Positions 1,211 through 51,856 of a stretch of 53,869 bases of DNA are shown piece by piece. Origin of the DNA: Lactiplantibacillus songbeiensis (GTDB taxonomy: Bacteria; Bacillota; Bacilli; Lactobacillales; Lactobacillaceae); the NCBI RefSeq assembly GCF_005405125.1, contig NZ_BJDL01000016.1, positions 1-53,869 on the forward strand, read 5' to 3'. Positions within the stretch are counted from its first letter, which is position 1; each line of letters opens with the position of its first letter. Below the pieces are notes generated by a model. It was not told where the DNA came from. It did no database searches and saw only the letters and a list, made by a program, of their open reading frames with translations. A program made the translations under genes and the position numbers.

Positions 1211-4200
1211 ATGCGATTAAAACAGTTACAACACAATGAGAATATCGGCGGGCATTATAAATTATATAAATCAGGTAAACAATGGTATTTATCATTAATC
1301 TTAGCGTTTGGCGGAGTGATGTTGGGGACTCAAACCTTTGCTAAACCAATTCATGCCGATACGACCAGTGCGACAACGACTGCACCATTAGTCTCTTCAG
1401 CGGCAACGACGACGGCTAGTAGTGCCACGTTAACAACGACCACAGCTAGTACTGCGACGATGACCTCTAGTACGGCAACTAGTACGGCTTCGGCTGCCAG
1501 TTCAGCGGCAACAACGACAACAATGAGTAGTGCCGCAATGAGTTCTAGTGCGGCTTTACCTAGCAGTACGGCGGCAACTAGTACCACTAGTTTAACCGCT
1601 GAGAGTACTGCACCAGCCGTATCAAGTTCGACTGCGACCAGTTCCGCAACAACCGCTGCATCTACGGCGGCCACAAGTACGACTTCCGCTGCTAGTTCAA
1701 TTGCAGCGCCTGAAAGTTCCACAGCAACTACCAGTACCGCAAGTAGTACGGCACCATTGAGTAGTGCTGCCAGTTCAACAGCCTCAACGGCACCAGCAAT
1801 GAGTTCCACTGCAACAAGCACGGCTAGTTCAACTGCCACTAGCACAGCAACAACGCCGCTAGCCAGTTCCACTGCTACCAGTACAGCCAGTTCAGCGGCT
1901 TCAACTGCGCCATTGGCAAGTTCAACAGCCACTAGCACTGCAACAACGCCACTAGCCAGTTCCACTGCTACTAGTACTGCTAGCTCAGCGGCTTCAACTG
2001 CGCCAGCAACAAGTTCCACAGCTACTAGCACAGCCAGCTCAGCAGCCTCAACTGCGCCAGCGACAAGTTCAGTAGCAAGTAGCACAGCCAGTTCAGCGGC
2101 CTCAACTGCACCAGTAACGAGTTCTACTGCAACAAGTGCAGCAAGCTCAACGGCAAGTAGTACAGCTAGTTCAGCCGCTTCCGCTGCACCAGCGACAAGC
2201 TCCACTGCAACGAGTACAGCCAGCTCAGCAGCCTCAACCGCGCCAGCGACAAGCTCCACTGCAACAAGCACAGCCAGTTCAGCCGCTTCCGCTGCACCAG
2301 CAACAAGCTCAACGGCAAGCAGCACAGCCAGTTCGGCAGCCTCAACCGCGCCAGCAACAAGCTCCACTGCAACAAGTACAGCTAGTTCAGCCGCTTCGAC
2401 TGCGCCAGCAACAAGTTCCACAGCAACAAGCACAACCAGCTCAGCAGTCTCAACGGCGCCAGCGACAAGTTCCACAGCAACAAGTACAGCCAGCTCAGCC
2501 GCTTCGACTGCACCAGCAACGAGTTCCACAGCTACTAGTGCAGCCAGCTCAGCAGCGTCAACTGCATCAGCAACTAGTTCTACCACAACAAGTGTAGCCA
2601 GCTCAGCAGCGTCAACTGCATCAGCAACTAGTTCTACCGCAACAAGTGTAGCCAGCTCAGCAGCGTCAACTGCGCCAGCAACAAGCTCCACGGCAAGTAG
2701 TGCAGCCAGCTCAGCAGCGTCAACCGCACCAGCAACAAGCTCCACGGCAAGTAGTGCAGCCAGTTCAGCAGCCTCAACAGCCACTAGTACCGCTAGCTCA
2801 GCCGCTTCTTCAGCGGCTACTAGCACGGCTAGTTCCGCAGCAGCAACTACTGCGCCAGAGTTAGTAGTTCAATTCTTAGATACGGCCACTGGTACCGCCA
2901 TCAAGCCTGCGTTAACCTTGACCGGCGCTAAGTTGGGGGCAACGTATGATTTGTCAGCAGACACGACGTTACCTGAGTATACCTTTGATGCAGCGGTTAG
3001 TGGTGCACTGACTGGCACTTATACAGCTGGCACTAAGACGATTAACCTATGCTTCACACCGGAACCAAAAGCCGGGACGATTACCGTGGATTACTTGGAT
3101 CAAAATGGACAACCGCTCTTACCGGCATCCACAATCAATGGACAAGTTAACGACAGTTATGCCTTAGAACCAACCCAGATTCCGTTTTACACGTATACAG
3201 GTTTGGGCACTGGTAGCTTGCCAATCAGTGGGAAGTTAGGCGCTAAAGCCGGCGATATCTTATTGACCTATCAAGCAGATACGGCCAAAGCTGAAGTTGA
3301 ATTTATTGATGGGACCACTAAACGGGTCTTAGAAACTTATCCACTATCCGGTTTAGTAGGAACTGCTTCAACCTACACACCAGATGCAACAATCAACTTC
3401 TATGAAGAAGAAGGGTATCAGGTTGCGAGTGATGACTTCCCTGATGCCGGGGCGTACTTCTTAGATCCAAACTACACGCCAACTTATGCTATTACCTTAA
3501 CTCATAAAACGACGACGTTAACGCCAGACAGCCCAGTTGCAGCGCCTGCTTTATCCAAGCTGGACTTAACGAAGACGGTCACGGAAACAATCGACTATGT
3601 TGATGATGCCGGTCAAGAACTTGCGCCAGCTTCATTAGAAACGGTCACCTTTACGCGCAACGCGACGATTGATAATGTGACGGATGAGGTGACGTATAGT
3701 GCTTGGAAGCCAGAGACTAAGCCAACCTTTACGGCCGCTGAAGCCCCGACGATTGATGGCTATACGCCAGAAACGACGGCAACGCCAGCTAGTGCGGTCA
3801 CACCAGCCACGACCGATTTGACTGAGCGGATCGTCTACGATGCTGACAGTACGCCCGCAACAACGACCCCAACGACTGCGCCAACGGATACGGCGACGGT
3901 TACCGGGACAACGACTAAAGCTCCAACGGCGACAGCCAAAACGACGCCTGCTGCTAAGTTACCGACTGCGAAAGCAATTAAGCCCGCGCCAAAGACGGTT
4001 AAGTCTATCAAGTTGGCAACAACTAAGACGGCTAAGCCCGGTACTAAGTCGGCGGCAACGGGTAAGACCTTACATTTGATTCGGCCAACGACTACGAAGA
4101 CATTGGCTAAACCAATGGCAACGGCAACGGTGCCAGTTTACAATGCGCAAGGTCAGATTATTGGTTCGACTCGATCACCATTAGCTAAGCCAACTGCTGG

Positions 4201-4366
4201 TAAGCACTTTGCTGGCAAGGCTGGGACCTATCGTCATTTAGCAGCCGGGTTACCACAGACTAGTGAAGCTAGTGCAGCACCAACTGGCTTCCTCGGTTTA
4301 TTGATGTTAGCTTTATCAGGTTTGTTCGGGTTCTTAGGCTTTGGTAAGAAGCGGCATGAACACTAA
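1211..4366 (+). CDS. Serine/threonine/alanine-repeat LPXTG adhesin with MucBP-like domains
   Basis: A 1051-residue surface protein. Residues ~14-50 form a KxYKxGKxW-type signal peptide (KLYKSGKQW, then a hydrophobic core), with cleavage likely near IHA-DTT. Residues ~50-545 are almost only Ser, Thr, Ala and Pro, and from ~265 they settle into an 18-residue repeat. Three to four MucBP-like beta-domains follow (about 550-840; e.g. VDYLDQNGQPL, IDYVDDAGQEL), then a Thr/Lys/Pro-rich wall-spanning part, LPQTS at about 1014, a hydrophobic segment and KKRHEH. MucBP domains occur in mucus-binding proteins of lactobacilli. The KxYKxGKxW signal is typical of Ser-rich glycoproteins exported by SecA2/SecY2, but no accessory-Sec or glycosyltransferase gene lies nearby, so glycosylation is only an inference. 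Own transcription unit with a terminator directly after it. Confidence 0.9.
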   Translation: MRLKQLQHNENIGGHYKLYKSGKQWYLSLILAFGGVMLGTQTFAKPIHADTTSATTTAPLVSSAATTTASSATLTTTTASTATMTSSTATSTASAASSAATTTTMSSAAMSSSAALPSSTAATSTTSLTAESTAPAVSSSTATSSATTAASTAATSTTSAASSIAAPESSTATTSTASSTAPLSSAASSTASTAPAMSSTATSTASSTATSTATTPLASSTATSTASSAASTAPLASSTATSTATTPLASSTATSTASSAASTAPATSSTATSTASSAASTAPATSSVASSTASSAASTAPVTSSTATSAASSTASSTASSAASAAPATSSTATSTASSAASTAPATSSTATSTASSAASAAPATSSTASSTASSAASTAPATSSTATSTASSAASTAPATSSTATSTTSSAVSTAPATSSTATSTASSAASTAPATSSTATSAASSAASTASATSSTTTSVASSAASTASATSSTATSVASSAASTAPATSSTASSAASSAASTAPATSSTASSAASSAASTATSTASSAASSAATSTASSAAATTAPELVVQFLDTATGTAIKPALTLTGAKLGATYDLSADTTLPEYTFDAAVSGALTGTYTAGTKTINLCFTPEPKAGTITVDYLDQNGQPLLPASTINGQVNDSYALEPTQIPFYTYTGLGTGSLPISGKLGAKAGDILLTYQADTAKAEVEFIDGTTKRVLETYPLSGLVGTASTYTPDATINFYEEEGYQVASDDFPDAGAYFLDPNYTPTYAITLTHKTTTLTPDSPVAAPALSKLDLTKTVTETIDYVDDAGQELAPASLETVTFTRNATIDNVTDEVTYSAWKPETKPTFTAAEAPTIDGYTPETTATPASAVTPATTDLTERIVYDADSTPATTTPTTAPTDTATVTGTTTKAPTATAKTTPAAKLPTAKAIKPAPKTVKSIKLATTKTAKPGTKSAATGKTLHLIRPTTTKTLAKPMATATVPVYNAQGQIIGSTRSPLAKPTAGKHFAGKAGTYRHLAAGLPQTSEASAAPTGFLGLLMLALSGLFGFLGFGKKRHEH
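2003..2790 (+). repeat. In-gene 54-bp (18-residue) tandem repeats of the adhesin
   Basis: About fourteen imperfect 54-bp units coding an 18-residue consensus that starts PATSSTATSTASSAASTA, with shortened units near both ends. Differences between units are mostly single bases. The region is prone to copy-number change by recombination and to assembly collapse. Confidence 0.9.
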
Positions 4367-8225: not shown

Positions 8226-8316
8226 TTGCCAGTAAAAATCTGCGGTATAATTTAGATTATGACCACAATTATTTGGAACTTTAAATGGCTAATATGGGGT
8301 GTGAATAGGCTAAACT

Positions 8317-8466
8317 TGCCACTCTGGTTGGCCCAGAATCGGCTGGAACGTGGTGGCCGCGTTTATGAGCCACAAGGGCGGTCTCATGCGGGCTTTGACT
8401 AACTCGAAAACCCGCCGACTAAGTCAAACGACACCACTGAGCCAATTCTGACCCGCCCGTCGTTAA
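8317..8466 (+). repeat. Intergenic repeat family A, copy A1 (plus orientation)
   Basis: About 150 bp. Landmarks are CACTCTGGTTGG, CAGAATCGGCTGGAACGTGG, a variable hairpin with ATGAG/CTCAT arms, a second hairpin with TTTGACT/AGTCAAA arms, CACCACTGAGCC and ATTCTGACCCGCCC. The outer arms (CAGAATCGGCT with AGCCAATTCTG) and the inner arms (GTGGTG with CACCAC) pair. It is followed 50 bp later by a minus-oriented relative (8516-8653). Non-coding. Confidence 0.9.
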
Positions 8467-8515
8467 CTAACCGGATAGTTATGAATTAATGATTGAATCC
8501 GTTATTTAGCCGAGA

Positions 8516-8675
8516 GGTTGGGTTCTAAAATGCTCAGCCGTGTCGTTGGCCTTAGTGCGAGTGGTTTGCTCGGACTTAGGCCAACGACAGTTTTGAAGAC
8601 CGAGCTTTGGCTTCAAAATGGCCCATGGCGTTCCAGCGTTTTAGAACCCAACCGGTAGGCGGCAAGTACAACAAA
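8516..8675 (-). repeat. Intergenic repeat family A, diverged subtype copy C1 (minus orientation)
   Basis: Perfect 15-bp outer stem (8516-8530 with 8639-8653), an inner stem with GTCGTTGGCCT and AGGCCAACGAC arms, and a TTTTGAAG/CTTCAAAA hairpin. The stretch ATGCTCAG...GTGTCGTT and the CGTTCCAGC end match copy A4 read in the same direction, so this is a diverged family A copy in minus orientation, paired with A1. Confidence 0.8.
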
Positions 8676-13251: not shown

Positions 13252-13253
13252 AA

Positions 13254-13376
13254 AGAGTGTGAAGTCCGACGGGTTGCCCCTGAGCATTGCCTAGCTAATC
13301 AATTATGCCGTGGGTTTTCGGCATGGTTGATTGGCGTAGCAAGCACAAGGGGCAGTCGGGCTGAACACGTTTCGGC
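13254..13376 (+). repeat. Intergenic repeat family B, copy B1
   Basis: About 120 bp starting directly after the DUF2207 stop. Landmarks are GAGTGTGAAGTCCGACGGG, GAGCATTGCCTAGC, a hairpin with ATGCCG/CGGCAT arms, GGCGTAGCAAGC and GCTGAACACGTTTCGG. Outer arms CCGAC/GTCGG and GCCCCT/AGGGGC pair. Non-coding. Confidence 0.9.
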
Positions 13377-13433
13377 AAAATAGTGGCACAGTGAAAAGAA
13401 CTTTACCCTTCGCTGAGACTGATTTATAAGGCT

Positions 13434-13493
13434 TTAGGCATGGTTGATTGGCGTAGCAGACACAAGGGGCAGTCGGGCTGAACACGTTTCGGT
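13434..13493 (+). repeat. Family B half copy (right arm only)
   Basis: Repeats only the right half of B1, from the GGCATGGTTGATTGGCGTAG part to the GAACACGTTTCGG end, 57 bp after B1. It is a partial duplication that cannot form the element's hairpin alone. Confidence 0.85.
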
Positions 13494-13541
13494 AAACTAG
13501 CACCAGCATCAACCCAATTCAGTAACTCACCTAACAAACAG

Positions 13542-14657: not shown

Positions 14658-16280
14658 ATGCTAACCGTAAATAATGTCAGTATGCAGTTCTCAACGCGCA
14701 AACTCTATGATGATGTGAACCTAAAATTCACGCCGGGCAACTGCTACGGCGTCATTGGTGCTAACGGGGCCGGCAAGTCGACCTTCTTAAAAATCTTGGA
14801 AGGCAAACTCCAACCAACATCAGGGAACGTCTCTATGGGTCCCAATGAACGGATGTCTAGTTTGAACCAAAACCATTTCGCCTTTGAAGACGAAGAAGTC
14901 TTATCAACGGTCATTCAGGGCCATGAAAAGTTGTACAAGATCATGAAAGAAAAAGATGCCTTGTATGCTAAGCCAGACTTTAGTGATGCCGATGGAATTC
15001 GGGCCGCTGAACTAGAAGGTGACTTTGCTGAAATGGACGGCTGGAATGCCGAATCAGAAGCCGACCAAATGTTGCAAGCTTTAGGAATTGATGAAGCGAT
15101 GCAACACAAAAAGATGAGTGAACTGACGGAACCACAAAAGGTTAAAGTCTTATTAGGCCAAGCGTTATTTGGTAATCCTGACGTGTTACTTTTGGACGAA
15201 CCGACCAACGGGTTAGACGTGCAATCAATTAGCTGGTTAGAGAACTTTTTAGCCGACTATGATAAGACGGTCATCGTCGTTTCTCATGACCGTCATTTCT
15301 TGAACCAAGTCTGTACCCATATGTGTGATGTTGACTTTGGTAAGATTACGTTGTTTGTCGGTAACTATGATTTCTGGATGGAATCAAGCCAATTAGCTGC
15401 TAAGTTACAGGCTAACGCGAATGCTAAGAAGACGGAACAAATCAAAGAGTTGCAAGAATTCGTGGCGCGGTTTAGTGCCAATGCTTCGAAGTCTAAGCAA
15501 GCAACCTCACGTAAAAAGCAATTGGAAAAGATCACTTTGGATGACATCAAGCCATCGTCACGGAAATATCCCTTCATCAAGTTTACGCCGGATCGTGAAA
15601 TCGGGAATGACTTGGTCAAAGTGGAAAATGTGTCGAAGACGATTGATGGCGTGAAGATTTTAGATAATATCAGTTTTACGTTACGGCCCAACGAAAAGAC
15701 TGCATTGATTAGTCGTAGTGATTTAGCCACGACCACATTAATGCAAATTATTGCGGGCGCAATTGAACCCGATTCTGGGAGTGTGACTTGGGGGCAAACC
15801 ACGTCACGGACGTACTTACCACGAGATATTAACGATGAATTCACTAACGCAGATCTAACGATTATCGACTGGTTACGGCAATACGCACCAAAAGAAGAGA
15901 GCGATAATACCTTCCTGCGGGGCTTCTTAGGTAAAATGTTATTCTCCGGTGAAGATGTGACTCGGAAAATCAACGTCTTATCAGGGGGCGAAAAAGTCCG
16001 GGGAATGTTGTCTAAGATGATGCTTAGCCGGGCCAATGTCTTACTATTGGACGACCCCACGAACCATTTGGACTTGGAATCAATCACGGCTTTGAATGAC
16101 AGCTTGATTGACTTTAAAGGCGCCATCGTCTTCACGTCCCATGACCACGAATTTATCCAAACGATTGCGGACCATATCGTTGAAGTCAGTGCTAAGGGTG
16201 TCGTTGACCGTGGCGATACGACTTATGATGAATATTTGGCTCACGAAGCAACGCAGGGACGCGTTCAGGATCTGTATTAA
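14658..16280 (+). CDS. ABC-F family ATPase (YkpA/YbiT-like), one nucleotide site degenerate
   Basis: A 540-residue soluble protein with two ABC domains and no membrane segments, the ABC-F layout of ribosome-acting ATPases. NBD1 has an intact Walker A (GANGAGKST, Lys40) and Walker B (LLLDEPTNGLD), but its signature reads LTEPQ instead of LSGGQ (~residue 155). NBD2 has an intact signature (LSGGE, ~440), but its Walker A reads ISRSDLATTTL (~349), without the Gly and Lys of the P-loop, and its Walker B is LLLDDPTNHLD. Both changed NBD faces form the same composite ATP site, so one site is intact and the other lost. The ~80-residue inter-domain linker rich in Lys fits ABC-F. Housekeeping translation factor or antibiotic-protection role cannot be told apart. 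GAGGG precedes the ATG. Confidence 0.9.
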   Translation: MLTVNNVSMQFSTRKLYDDVNLKFTPGNCYGVIGANGAGKSTFLKILEGKLQPTSGNVSMGPNERMSSLNQNHFAFEDEEVLSTVIQGHEKLYKIMKEKDALYAKPDFSDADGIRAAELEGDFAEMDGWNAESEADQMLQALGIDEAMQHKKMSELTEPQKVKVLLGQALFGNPDVLLLDEPTNGLDVQSISWLENFLADYDKTVIVVSHDRHFLNQVCTHMCDVDFGKITLFVGNYDFWMESSQLAAKLQANANAKKTEQIKELQEFVARFSANASKSKQATSRKKQLEKITLDDIKPSSRKYPFIKFTPDREIGNDLVKVENVSKTIDGVKILDNISFTLRPNEKTALISRSDLATTTLMQIIAGAIEPDSGSVTWGQTTSRTYLPRDINDEFTNADLTIIDWLRQYAPKEESDNTFLRGFLGKMLFSGEDVTRKINVLSGGEKVRGMLSKMMLSRANVLLLDDPTNHLDLESITALNDSLIDFKGAIVFTSHDHEFIQTIADHIVEVSAKGVVDRGDTTYDEYLAHEATQGRVQDLY

Positions 16281-16401
16281 GAGTGTGAGGTCCGACGGGT
16301 TGTGCCTGAGCATTGCCTAGCTAGGCAATTGTGTCAGTGGTTTTCTGACATGGTTGGCTAGCGTAGCAAGCGGAGGGGGCAGTCGGGCCGAACACGTTTC
16401 A
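16281..16401 (+). repeat. Intergenic repeat family B, copy B2
   Basis: Begins at the base after the ABC-F stop. Same landmarks as B1; the central hairpin arms are TGTCAG/CTGACA and the outer arms CCGAC/GTCGG. Confidence 0.9.
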
Positions 16402-16439
16402 GCTCGTAACCTAAACAAACAAAATCACCAGCACCACCG

Positions 16440-18514: not shown

Positions 18515-18583
18515 GTGACTTTGGCCGGCTCGAAAACGCGGTTACCACGTGCCAGCGTCAATCCAACCCAACTAAAGCCGCAA
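18515..18583 (-). repeat. Family A truncated copy A7 (minus orientation)
   Basis: Keeps only the end of the element: GGCTCGAAAACGCGGTTACC, CACGTGCCAGC, CAATCCAACCCAAC and GCCGCAAG. It aligns with copy A4 read in the same direction. The other half is absent. Confidence 0.7.
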
Positions 18584-24487: not shown

Positions 24488-24520
24488 GATGTATTCTTAA
24501 TTTGCTAGTTGGATTAATTT

Positions 24521-24668
24521 GTCACTCTGGTTGGGCCAGAATCGGCTGGAACGTGGTGGCCACGTTTTCGAGCTACAAACCGGTCTCGAAAGCCGGGCTT
24601 TATCTGAGTCGGGAAATCACCGACCAAGATAAACGACACCACTGAGCCAATTCTGGCCCGCCCGGCGT
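24521..24668 (+). repeat. Intergenic repeat family A, copy A2 (plus orientation)
   Basis: Outer arms GGGCCAGAATCGGCT and AGCCAATTCTGGCCC pair over 15 bp with one G-T. Inner arms GTGGTG/CACCAC, a first hairpin TTCGAG/CTCGAA and a second hairpin TTTATCT/AGATAAA. Followed 58 bp later by the minus-oriented relative C2. Confidence 0.92.
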
Positions 24669-24726
24669 TAGCAACCGGCTATTAAAAAGTTAATAATTGA
24701 TTATTTCCAGTTCAGTCATTTAGCTG

Positions 24727-24862
24727 CGAGATTGGGTCCCAAAATGCTTAGCCGTGTTATTGGTTTTAGTACGATTACGCCAGGTTCAGTTTTGAAGTCC
24801 GATCTTTAACTTCAAAATGACTCATAGCGTTCCAGCGTTTTAGGAACTAACTGGCAGGCGGC
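24727..24862 (-). repeat. Family A diverged subtype copy C2 (minus orientation, decayed)
   Basis: Aligns with C1 over its length, keeps the TTTTGAAG/CTTCAAAA hairpin and GCGTTCCAGCGTTTTAG, but the outer and middle stems are eroded. Paired with A2. Confidence 0.75.
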
Positions 24863-24906
24863 AACTTTGACGAACACCAAACGTCATCATCTGGCATAAG
24901 TAAACC

Positions 24907-27568: not shown

Positions 27569-27602
27569 TAAAAAACGCTTAGGACGTTAATCCTAAGCGT
27601 GG
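27569..27602 (-). terminator. Terminator of the orphan antitoxin gene; first copy of a 34-bp direct repeat
   Basis: A 10-bp stem (27575-27584 with 27591-27600) with T6 on the minus strand. The 34 bp are identical to 27935-27968, which terminates the DeoR gene. Confidence 0.85.
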
Positions 27603-27612
27603 TCGTGATTGG

Positions 27613-27885
27613 CTAATGCTTATTATGCATATTGATTAATAGCTTGTGCTGTTTAAAGCCACGTTGTGTGAGTTGCCAGTCGCTTTCTTTGATCCGTTCC
27701 ATTAGTTTTGTGTTGGACATGATTGCGAGAGTTTCCATAATTGATTCATAGGTATCTACTGAGAGAACGACAATATTGTTGTTGAATTTGGGGTTGGTTA
27801 CGGTTAGCGGTTCAGGGGTATCGTTTACTTGGTGCATGTAAGACTTAAGATTTTGTCGGAAGTCAGTATAGCTTGTTGTTTGCAT
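27613..27885 (-). CDS. Orphan Phd/YefM-family antitoxin
   Basis: 90 residues. The N-terminal ~65 fit the Phd/YefM DNA-binding fold (YTDFRQNLKSYMHQVNDTPE, NNIVVLSVDTYESIMETLAI). The C-terminal tail that normally binds the toxin is unusual (QLTQRGFKQHKLLINMHNKH). No RelE/YoeB-type toxin follows: a terminator starts 11 bp after the stop. AAAGGA precedes the ATG, and an inverted repeat spans its predicted promoter, so autoregulation is likely. Either the partner was lost or the protein acts only as a regulator. Confidence 0.75.
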   Translation of the reverse strand: MQTTSYTDFRQNLKSYMHQVNDTPEPLTVTNPKFNNNIVVLSVDTYESIMETLAIMSNTKLMERIKESDWQLTQRGFKQHKLLINMHNKH

Positions 27886-27934: not shown

Positions 27935-27968
27935 TAAAAAACGCTTAGGACGTTAATCCTAAGCGTGG
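27935..27968 (-). terminator. Terminator of the DeoR gene; second copy of the 34-bp direct repeat
   Basis: Same hairpin as 27569-27602 (27941-27950 with 27957-27966). The stem includes the DeoR stop codon, which suggests that this is the original copy. Confidence 0.85.
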
Positions 27969-31206: not shown

Positions 31207-31304
31207 CGATTTTCAGAAAATAACGTGGTGTGATTCCTGAAAATAGTGTAATCTTAGAAGTGCATGAAAAACTTATTTTTGAATAAAAATAGTGTGGTGT
31301 TTTT

Positions 31305-31457
31305 GGTCACTCTGGTTGGGCCAGAATCGGCTGGAACGTGGTGGCCACGTTTATGAGCCAAAGTTCGGTCTCATAAGCCGGGCTTTATCTAGGTCGGAAA
31401 AACCACCGACCAAGATAAACGACACCACTGAGCCAATTCTGACCCGCCCGGCGTTGA
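31305..31457 (+). repeat. Intergenic repeat family A, copy A3 (plus orientation)
   Basis: Same plan as A2, with first hairpin TTATGAG/CTCATAA and second TTTATCT...AGATAAA extended by GGTCGG/CCGACC. Short ORFs inside it are not credible. Confidence 0.92.
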
Positions 31458-31560
31458 TTAACAGGTATTTATAAGTAGTTGCTAGTCATTTTAATCATTT
31501 GATTAGGAATACGATTAGTGTTGCAGTAGCTTTAAACAAATAATTAGTCAGCTAATTTAG

Positions 31561-31715
31561 CGAAGGGCGGGCTGGATGATGCTCAGTGGTGTCGTTTGAC
31601 TTAGGTCGAGTGTTCTTCTCGTCCTTAGTCAAAGCCCGGCTTGGAAGACCGTATTTTGGCTTCCAAACGCGGCCACCACGTTCCAGCATCAATCCAGACC
31701 AACCATAGCGGCAAT
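31561..31715 (-). repeat. Intergenic repeat family A, copy A4 (minus orientation)
   Basis: Hairpins TTTGACT/AGTCAAA (with an inner CGAG/CTCG) and TTGGAAG/CTTCCAA, and the CACGTTCCAGC end. It forms an inverted pair with A3, 104 bp apart. A4 is the copy that links the A and C subtypes. Confidence 0.9.
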
Positions 31716-36535: not shown

Positions 36536-36766
36536 TATACTAAGGGACATAGCGTTGCTTAACCGCCGTTAATTGCTATTTTCTCTTAAATTTATTAACA
36601 AGTAGCGCTATACCCAAACGAATCGAGTCATCGGTTAATCCTTCCCAGAATACCTGTGACTTTTCCATAACGGTGATCAAGCTCCCAACTTGATCATTGC
36701 GAGTTATCGTTTGAATGCAATTACCCTTTGAGTACCTAGCCATTGGTTGGGTGCTTTTTTGTAGAG
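36536..36766 (+). ncRNA. Candidate stand-alone structured small RNA
   Basis: Between two minus-strand genes lies a plus-strand unit with a possible -10 TATACT (36536-36541) and a clear intrinsic terminator (AGTACCTAGCCA with TGGTTGGGTGCT, then T6 at 36755-36760). Inside are a hairpin with GGTGATCAAG/CTTGATCATT arms (36672-36696), ATAAC/GTTAT extending it past a GCGA bulge, and CAAACGA (36615-36621) pairing with TCGTTTG (36706-36712). No credible ORF and no downstream plus-strand gene for 640 bp, so it is not a riboswitch of a neighbour. It does not match an RNA family I can name. Confidence 0.5.
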
Positions 36767-36891
36767 TGAGAGGTACAGCGGGTTGGGGTCGAGCATTGCC
36801 TAGCTAAGCCAATGACTCGGTAGTCTTTCCGAGTCGTTGGCTTGGCGTAGCAAGCGGAGTCCCCAGCTGTGCCGAACACGTTTCGGCAAGT
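36763..36891 (+). repeat. Intergenic repeat family B, copy B3
   Basis: Same landmarks as B1/B2 (GAGCATTGCCTAGCTA, GGCGTAGCAAGCGGA, GCCGAACACGTTTCGG). The central hairpin arms are GACTCGG/CCGAGTC, and the outer arms changed to ACAGC/GCTGT and TGGGG/CCCCA. Confidence 0.9.
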
Positions 36892-36904
36892 CAGTAGGAA
36901 CCAC

Positions 36905-41650: not shown

Positions 41651-41729
41651 GGCTCCACGATAATCGGCTGATCAGCTAAATTTATAGCTTAAAATGAATC
41701 AACACTAATTTATAAGTGTCCGGTAGCTA

Positions 41730-41880
41730 ACGGCGGGCGGCCAAGAATTGGCTCAGTGGTGTCGTTTATCTTAGTCGGTGATTTTCCGACTTAGATAAAG
41801 CCCGGCTTTCGAGACCGCCCTGTGGCTCGAAAACGTGGCCACCACGTTTCAGCCGATTCTGGGCCAACCAGAGTGGCAAG
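41730..41880 (-). repeat. Intergenic repeat family A, copy A5 (minus orientation)
   Basis: Hairpins TTTATCTTAGTCGG/CCGACTTAGATAAA and TTTCGAG/CTCGAAA. The outer arms CCAAGAATTGGCT and AGCCGATTCTGGG pair with G-T. No plus copy precedes it. Confidence 0.92.
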
Positions 41881-51413: not shown

Positions 51414-51564
51414 GAGTGTGATCACAAGTTGCGGCTAAGGCTAAGGTCAGGTGATTGGCTGATAGCTTGTAAATTAAGACCCAACCATTAAGTTGACCCT
51501 TTGAAGATAATAGTCAGGTTGGCTGTAATGAATTAACGTTAGTTTATAAATAGTCAATAATTAA

Positions 51565-51713
51565 CGACGGGCGGCCCAGAATTGGCTCAGTGGTGTCGTT
51601 TATCTTAGTTGGTGATTTTCCGACTTAGATAAAGCCCGGCTTGGAAGACCGAGCTGTGGCTTCCGAACGCGGCCACCACGTTCCAGCCGATTCTGGGCCA
51701 ACCAGAGTGGCAA
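51565..51713 (-). repeat. Intergenic repeat family A, copy A6 (minus orientation)
   Basis: Hairpins TTTATCT/AGATAAA and GGAAG/CTTCC. Outer arms GGCCCAGAATTGGCT and AGCCGATTCTGGGCC pair over 15 bp with one G-T. The upstream flank (ATGAATTAAC..TTTATAA) resembles that of A5. Confidence 0.92.
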
Positions 51714-51856
51714 TTTAAACCAACTAGCGCCAAGCGTAAGCTTAATACCGGTTCCAAAAAACAATCCGTTTAGCAGTGTGGTATGCTAAATATATGGTTT
51801 TTTCAGAAAGTTAATAAATTCTAAACCAGCCAACACTCAAATAAAGGAAGTTCAGC

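Follow-up and report, generated by a model that had tools for sequence, protein, structure and literature searches.

In a 53,869-nt stretch of the Lactiplantibacillus songbeiensis genome (contig NZ_BJDL01000016.1; hereafter the window), we examined a dispersed, structured intergenic repeat, termed family A. Its copies bounded by terminal inverted repeats (TIRs) are miniature inverted-repeat transposable elements (MITEs) of the insertion sequence family IS982, which is the safe part of our interpretation. The fuller reading, to which we give a probability of roughly 60%, is that family A in Lactiplantibacillus is a MITE moved in trans by IS982-family transposases and carrying an inverted pair of folds that act as DNA. 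An earlier note, made from the letters of the window alone, had listed a non-autonomous mobile element or MITE among its suggestions; this proved right, the MITE features being shared TIRs that match the ends of IS982, target duplications, an empty site, the lack of a transposase-sized gene inside the element, and a genomic count of no fewer than 144 units. The novelty lies in the cargo, a conserved inverted fold pair that is spread far beyond the IS982 MITE.

All nine copies reported by the earlier note were recovered at their positions by a repeat-finding tool and an iterated hidden Markov model (HMM), with a covariance model giving slightly longer ends for some of them. The units, together with the one IS982-type end lying beside them, are as follows:

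8316..8465, plus strand: unit of subtype A, left member of a composite, with an outer helix and two hairpins (HMM, covariance model)
8509..8665, minus strand: unit of subtype B, right inverted member of the 8316 composite, with long, near-perfect hairpins (fold, HMM, covariance model)
18526..18582, minus strand: truncated A unit (HMM, 22.7 bits)
24519..24670, plus strand: structured unit of subtype A (HMM, covariance model)
24723..24864, minus strand: decayed unit of subtype B (HMM, covariance model)
31304..31456, plus strand: structured unit of subtype A (fold, HMM, covariance model)
31558..31714, minus strand: structured unit of a third subtype, with ends TTGCCGCTATGG...CGCTAAA (fold, flanks, HMM, covariance model)
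41728..41879, minus strand: solo structured unit of subtype A (HMM, covariance model)
51562..51713, minus strand: solo structured unit of subtype A (HMM, covariance model)
51721..51737, minus strand: IS982-type TIR with one mismatch to ACGCTTGGTGCTAGTTG, at the outer end of the 51562 copy

Extending the flanks revealed that ACGCTTGGTGCTAGTTG, in inverted orientation, stands at both ends of many composites. Across the L. songbeiensis genome this terminal repeat was matched 254 times (130 plus 124, at most three mismatches), against 10 matches (6 and 4) for a reversed control pattern. From this genome, L. dongliensis and some sister genomes we assembled 49 TIR-bounded elements, 159-475 bp in size, 28 of them falling between 389 and 406 bp, in which the longest complete open reading frame (ORF) is 67 aa. 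Target duplications of 7-9 bp with at most one mismatch flank 33 of the 49 (null expectation 0.5%), and in 16 the duplication is exact (0 of 2000 in the null). A comparison of empty and occupied sites, as the earlier note had proposed, yielded one clear case: an element of about 400 bp (locus L039:17005-17415) is present in genome G004, and the same place is empty in five relatives (G001, G002, G010, G014 and G018). For a further possible empty site, at L039:9800, G004 was found to carry other DNA.

IS982 ends begin with AC, a feature that led us to consider this family after IS256 had been rejected as the driver for want of any PF00872 match in the L. songbeiensis genome. An intact 958-bp IS982 copy in G010, a sister species (L232), carries TACGCTTGGTGCTAGTTGATT exactly at both ends within a 7-bp duplication (ATCAATT), and its ends are identical to those of family A elements at 17 of 17 positions on both sides. 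Its protein matches the NCBIfam model NF033520 for IS982 at 219 bits, against a cutoff of 130. Since the ends of the element are IS982 ends, we regard IS982 transposases as the probable movers. Intact IS982-type copies have mostly open frames of 255-301 aa, and 11 of 21 Lactiplantibacillus genomes contain matches above cut-off to PF13612, a model that may catch other transposases too. The part of a review of the family available to us gives conserved 5'-AC ends and, in its table rows, duplications of variable length (0-9 bp), that of the L. plantarum element ISLpl4 being 8 bp (PMC7335449).

Two further candidates were rejected. The interior of family A is no internal deletion of IS982, given that the common sequence is limited to about 17-21 bases at the ends and that no unit was found in the 14 PF13612 loci scanned (of 20 fetched); a deletion origin is not needed for every MITE, so solely the internal-deletion subtype is excluded. 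The sole pair of TIRs lying 600-5000 bp apart in the DNA examined, considered as a possible transposase carrier, brackets the housekeeping gene prs and no transposase. The claim of the earlier note that the window itself holds no transposase was confirmed by Pfam for 39 of its proteins, with small or overlapping ORFs and the repetitive ORF at 1211-4366 falling outside the scan.

Copy number and placement were assessed in a 450-kb sample of the genome (contig C13, parts of C1 and C7, and the window), which contains 76 units, or about 170 per Mb. Matches to the model number at least 144 in the whole 3.03-Mb assembly, far more than nine, and the total could be about 500 if the sampled density holds. 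Based on crude gene calls (greedy longest ORFs, ignoring unit-overlapping ORFs of less than 110 aa), the units are intergenic in co-directional, convergent and divergent gaps alike; 4 of the 76 run into a larger ORF, in three cases on the side of its start, whereas the fourth lies within an ORF of 154 aa. By the same calls units account for about 10.6 kb, compared with an intergenic total of 71.2 kb for the sample. A large share of the intergenic DNA here is thus explained by units, for whose annotation covariance models are now available.

The earlier note had held that every plus copy is followed by a minus copy. This applies to the three plus copies of the window (gaps of 51, 63 and 102 bp), and in the sample 19 of the 20 neighbours less than 150 bp apart are plus-minus, the other being plus-plus, with no minus-plus or minus-minus case. 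However, only 38 of the 76 units sit in such close convergent pairs (48 when convergent pairs of less than 500 bp are counted), and because half of the units lie outside such close pairs the pairing is a strong tendency and no rule. The linker described by the earlier note, ATTTAGC..GAG, is the second unit's own conserved outer end in reverse reading, and the same outer end is present on units of another genus.

Each unit is a three-way junction of about 150 nt, consisting of an outer stem and two hairpins. Five of six folded strands were far more stable than their shuffles (z from -5.7 to -9.9), and the window copy at 8318-8463, folded alone, was only weakly better (z -1.2). Changes on both sides of a pair were found in 24 of 39 pairs among 48 copies from L. 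songbeiensis, and in 37 of 39 in an alignment of 114 units, 111 of them distinct, that covers ten genera and some plasmids. In the latter, 93.5% of cells are paired, compared with 61.9% after shuffling, and the covariation score is 0.743, compared with 0.175±0.006 for shuffled and at most 0.129 for slid controls. Strong compensatory change is thereby shown for the fold across the ten-genus alignment. The A and B units of one composite likewise differ in outer-stem sequence, each stem being complementary to its own partner arm. At one place occupied by units in two species (L039:3509-3667 and L165:3243-3396, the latter in G001), the second hairpin differs by several paired changes, for which replacement by another copy is a possible source. 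Set within these variable helices are near-constant motifs: GCTGGAAC facing CTGAGC at the neck, AGCC facing GGTCT in hairpin 1, and TAA facing TAA, with an A.A mismatch, in hairpin 2.

Such a pattern of compensation could also arise if the interior were inert filler, its paired changes produced by hairpin-templated replication errors and gene conversion, with the IS982 ends alone being of consequence. Consistent with this, three adjacent pairs of one hairpin show two to four pair types each among 54 A copies from L. songbeiensis, and the similar frequencies of G-U and A-C reported below are what a DNA process would be expected to give. Templated correction would, however, be expected to remove mismatches, and the A.A mismatch, like the neck loop, is instead near-constant across genera. 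Moreover, units persist in low-copy genomes (one to four matches in 10 of 11), and the convergent arrangement is retained with very different spacers. We therefore consider inert filler quite improbable.

Selection on a single RNA strand should tolerate G-U pairs and not A-C pairs, and counts of the two provide a test of the form in which the fold is maintained. For 85 units less than 85% identical, we retained the 36 pairs with a Watson-Crick share of 70% or more, leaving out three, and counted 2760 Watson-Crick, 47 G-U, 62 A-C and 75 other cells. In the same DNA, tRNAs gave 17 G-U and 2 A-C (19 parsed of 22 distinct), and terminator-like hairpins with one non-Watson-Crick pair gave 30 and 10. 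Because G-U is no commoner than A-C in the units, unlike in tRNAs and terminators, the helices appear to be maintained at the DNA level or else on both strands.

The chief alternative is that the fold works as RNA, namely as a bidirectional 3'-end or processing signal that IS982 ends merely spread. The symmetry of the pairs would suit bidirectional use, with a plus fold offered to transcription from either side; several A units lie, by eye, directly after a terminator or stop codon; the near-constant unpaired motifs look RNA-like; and the constant G.T at the neck would be a G-U in the plus strand. Conversely, the helix counts differ from those of both RNA controls, and no T-tract follows the units (2 of 66 and 0 of 66 have one 3' of the stem, against a background of 10%), which rules out an intrinsic terminator. 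By the crude gene calls, 14 of the 76 units lie between divergent genes. No Rfam family was matched above its gathering threshold, in agreement with the earlier note, to which the sequence had matched no familiar family. Its suggestion of a transcript-end structure is thus disfavoured, both by the missing T-tract and by the pair counts, which speak against one-strand RNA, and we judge an RNA role rather unlikely.

A number of observations weigh against our preferred reading of a DNA-acting fold pair carried by an IS982 MITE. The outcome of the pair count hinges on leaving out the three pairs below 70% Watson-Crick, among them a G.T adjoining the neck loop that hardly varies (73 of 77). The full set of 39 pairs yields 148 G-U and 92 A-C, and dropping solely the near-constant G.T gives 75 and 92; in a first pass on alignment A2, all pairs gave 131 and 74, and 37 and 53 remained without the three. 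Fisher tests returned p values of 2.8e-4 for units against tRNAs and 7.6e-4 against terminators, which are no more than indicative given that cells are non-independent. In addition, the non-Watson-Crick cells may mostly reflect neutral decay after insertion, and strict pairing as RNA on both strands, or hairpin-templated mutation, could equalise G-U and A-C. The alignments A2, A4 and A5 were fitted to the model, so their pairing is inflated. With respect to mobility, units of the third subtype and several solo A units have no recognisable IS982 ends, and 14 of 15 pairs from other genomes compared at their flanks have no clear long TIR, the exception being a 36-bp inverted match at 86% (L111); TIR-less units are accordingly candidates for mobility only. 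Movement of the element, and its reading by a protein, are inferred from sequence. Finally, the sole IS982-type match in the L. songbeiensis assembly is a dead relic with six stops and below the Pfam cut-off. With its 50 contigs this assembly is a draft, and no fewer than ten of the terminal repeats listed have a contig end within 410 bp, so that intact IS982 copies may have been lost in assembly gaps.

Comparison across genomes revealed variation in both the ends and the distribution of the element. G013 and G016 possess a longer form of about 0.9-1 kb with ends ACGCGTTGTGCTAGTTA, which are identical to those of an IS982-type copy in G004 (L215) at 17 of 17 positions on both sides. All 12 such elements contain two convergent units, and the longest complete ORFs in or around them (52-117 aa) are below the 255-301-aa open frames of most intact IS982-type copies. 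Outside L. songbeiensis, 26 of 28 neighbours less than 600 bp apart are convergent (six of the 26 from G013 and G016), the other two being plus-plus, and this arrangement is kept despite very different spacers.

Within the genus, 19 of 21 genomes contain units. They are absent from the four-contig assemblies G018 and G019, although G019 has IS982-type matches. The fold was detected in 99 of 350 genomes and 13 of 40 genera of the family, and in 35 of 395 genomes of the order, nine of these lying outside the family with weak scores. Five of the nine, all from one other family, have recognisable relatives of 162-177 nt with the same hairpin motifs, seen as single units. The relatives do not include five matches from family f4, of which four measure 70 nt and seem to occupy one place, while the fifth measures 74 nt. 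A 70-nt double hairpin with AGCC..GTCT at about 1501-1570 of L259, L260, L262 and L263, seemingly one place shared by four genomes from a third family, may be a distant relative or a chance likeness.

Among the matches listed for a 20-base piece of the unit were L. dongliensis, L. nangangensis, L. daoliensis, L. pingfangensis, Levilactobacillus humaensis and Levilactobacillus paucivorans. Single related units occur on plasmids of L. plantarum, L. pentosus and Ligilactobacillus salivarius, and similar DNA on L. paraplantarum plasmids. The G016 element matched 27 plasmid records (Lactiplantibacillus, Ligilactobacillus and Pediococcus), each of those listed covering about one third of its length, and five plasmid loci examined hold one unit each. 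The same element found no match among phage records, nor did the L. songbeiensis composite among plasmid records, and no ORF associated with low-copy units was recognised by eye at nine loci.

Not all elements share the ACGC-type ends. In G144, from another genus, near-identical composites start with GATTCTTTCTTAAATTGGATTAG-type repeats, and two elements from another family (f2) end in GGTTCTT. Duplications adjoin GGTTCTT-type ends in a single copy from G144, where they are 12 bp long with one mismatch, and in two f2 copies, where they are 7-8 bp long; all are AT-rich. The likeness of these ends to those of ISL3 stays a resemblance, two short searches having given only chance matches or none. 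Because some elements of another genus and family have GGTTCTT-type ends instead of ACGC, the fold probably predates its IS982 ends.

Under the IS982 MITE reading, an IS982-family transposase would act in trans on the IS982-type ends of the element, and the fold would form in DNA, as a hairpin in a single strand or as a cruciform. With an inverted pair, each strand would then carry, close to its 5' end, a single fold in the proper orientation, and a host or transposon protein might read the fold at both ends, aiding movement or copying. REP hairpins and integron attC folds are cases of folded DNA being read in movement or copying, and by analogy the most likely role of the family A fold may be recognition of folded DNA during these processes. 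Less firmly, the fold may be an older passenger caught between the ends of different transposons. More speculatively, the three-way junction could be a transferable DNA-fold module that works as an inverted pair, selected as DNA and not as RNA over the depth of an order, captured by the ends of several unrelated transposons, and serving as a structure-read handle, recognised in single strands or as a cruciform, that makes very successful MITEs; we offer this as a tentative proposal, itself open to considerable doubt. Should movement require the fold, this would make it a structure-dependent accessory in MITEs of DDE transposons and would allow a simple genetic test, in food-grade bacteria, of how cells read folded DNA.

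Other repeats were noted near family A. A second intergenic repeat family occupies window positions 13253-13500, 16279-16410 and 36762-36894 (GAGCATTGCCTAGC ... GGCGTAGCAAGC ... GAACACGTTTCGGC); DNA resembling it lies, by eye, inside family A units in L195 and L207 and beside one in L208, and at L039:2900-3100 also adjoins copies of family A. A terminator-like palindrome of 34 nt is present in two identical copies set 366 bp apart (27569-27602 and 27935-27968), which flank a lone Phd/YefM antitoxin gene (27613-27885). The window also contains 54-nt tandem repeats (1391-2873) within a 1051-aa ORF (1211-4366) that looks Ser/Ala/Thr-rich, and a run of AGACCC hexamers at the contig edge (1-87), probably the end of a repetitive gene.

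A search of the open-access literature, with subscription papers outside its reach, found no description of this Lactiplantibacillus element. The earlier note had likened its pair logic to repetitive extragenic palindromic (REP) sequences and bacterial interspersed mosaic elements (BIMEs). The likeness is sound for anatomy, both being intergenic inverted pairs of diverged, imperfect-hairpin units whose fold is probably read as DNA, and does not extend to membership. The REP hairpin has a GTAG-type foot, and to our knowledge REP/BIME elements make no target duplications; family A is a 150-nt three-way junction whose TIR-bounded copies have duplications and IS982 ends. Movement of a BIME-like element by a REP-associated Y1 (RAYT) transposase would fit the inverted pairs and the high intergenic copy number, but not the duplications and terminal repeats common to IS982. 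Furthermore, the Y1 transposases that the earlier note had proposed to look for in carriers do not track the repeat: Y1_Tnp was found in 13 of 21 genus genomes, being absent from G001, G004, G010 and G016, which have 53-144 unit matches, but occurring in the two genomes without any such match, G018 and G019. This mechanism is refuted for Lactiplantibacillus copies bounded by TIRs, and for family A as a whole we regard it as highly implausible.

The pneumococcal BOX and RUP repeats, small structured intergenic elements of which RUP is a MITE, resemble family A by description. EFAR repeats, which are probably the same as Efa-1, are the most likely printed relative, judged from their description. 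In the part of its account available to us, Efa-1 of Enterococcus faecalis is a 163-bp intergenic element with 65 members and two adjacent stem-loops predictable on both strands (PMC2267715), and, compared by description only, is alike to the unit in size, intergenic site and stem-loops; the relatives of the unit in a second family of the order measure 162-177 nt. As far as the partial sources go, family A resembles the IS982 family (ISLpl4 and kin) in its ACGC... or 5'-AC ends and 7-9-bp duplications (PMC7335449), and the IS982-derived MITE of Cardinium in its presumed dependence on a transposase in trans (PMC9769881). It differs from both in its interior, an unrelated, conserved fold pair, with only about 17-21 bases at the ends in common.
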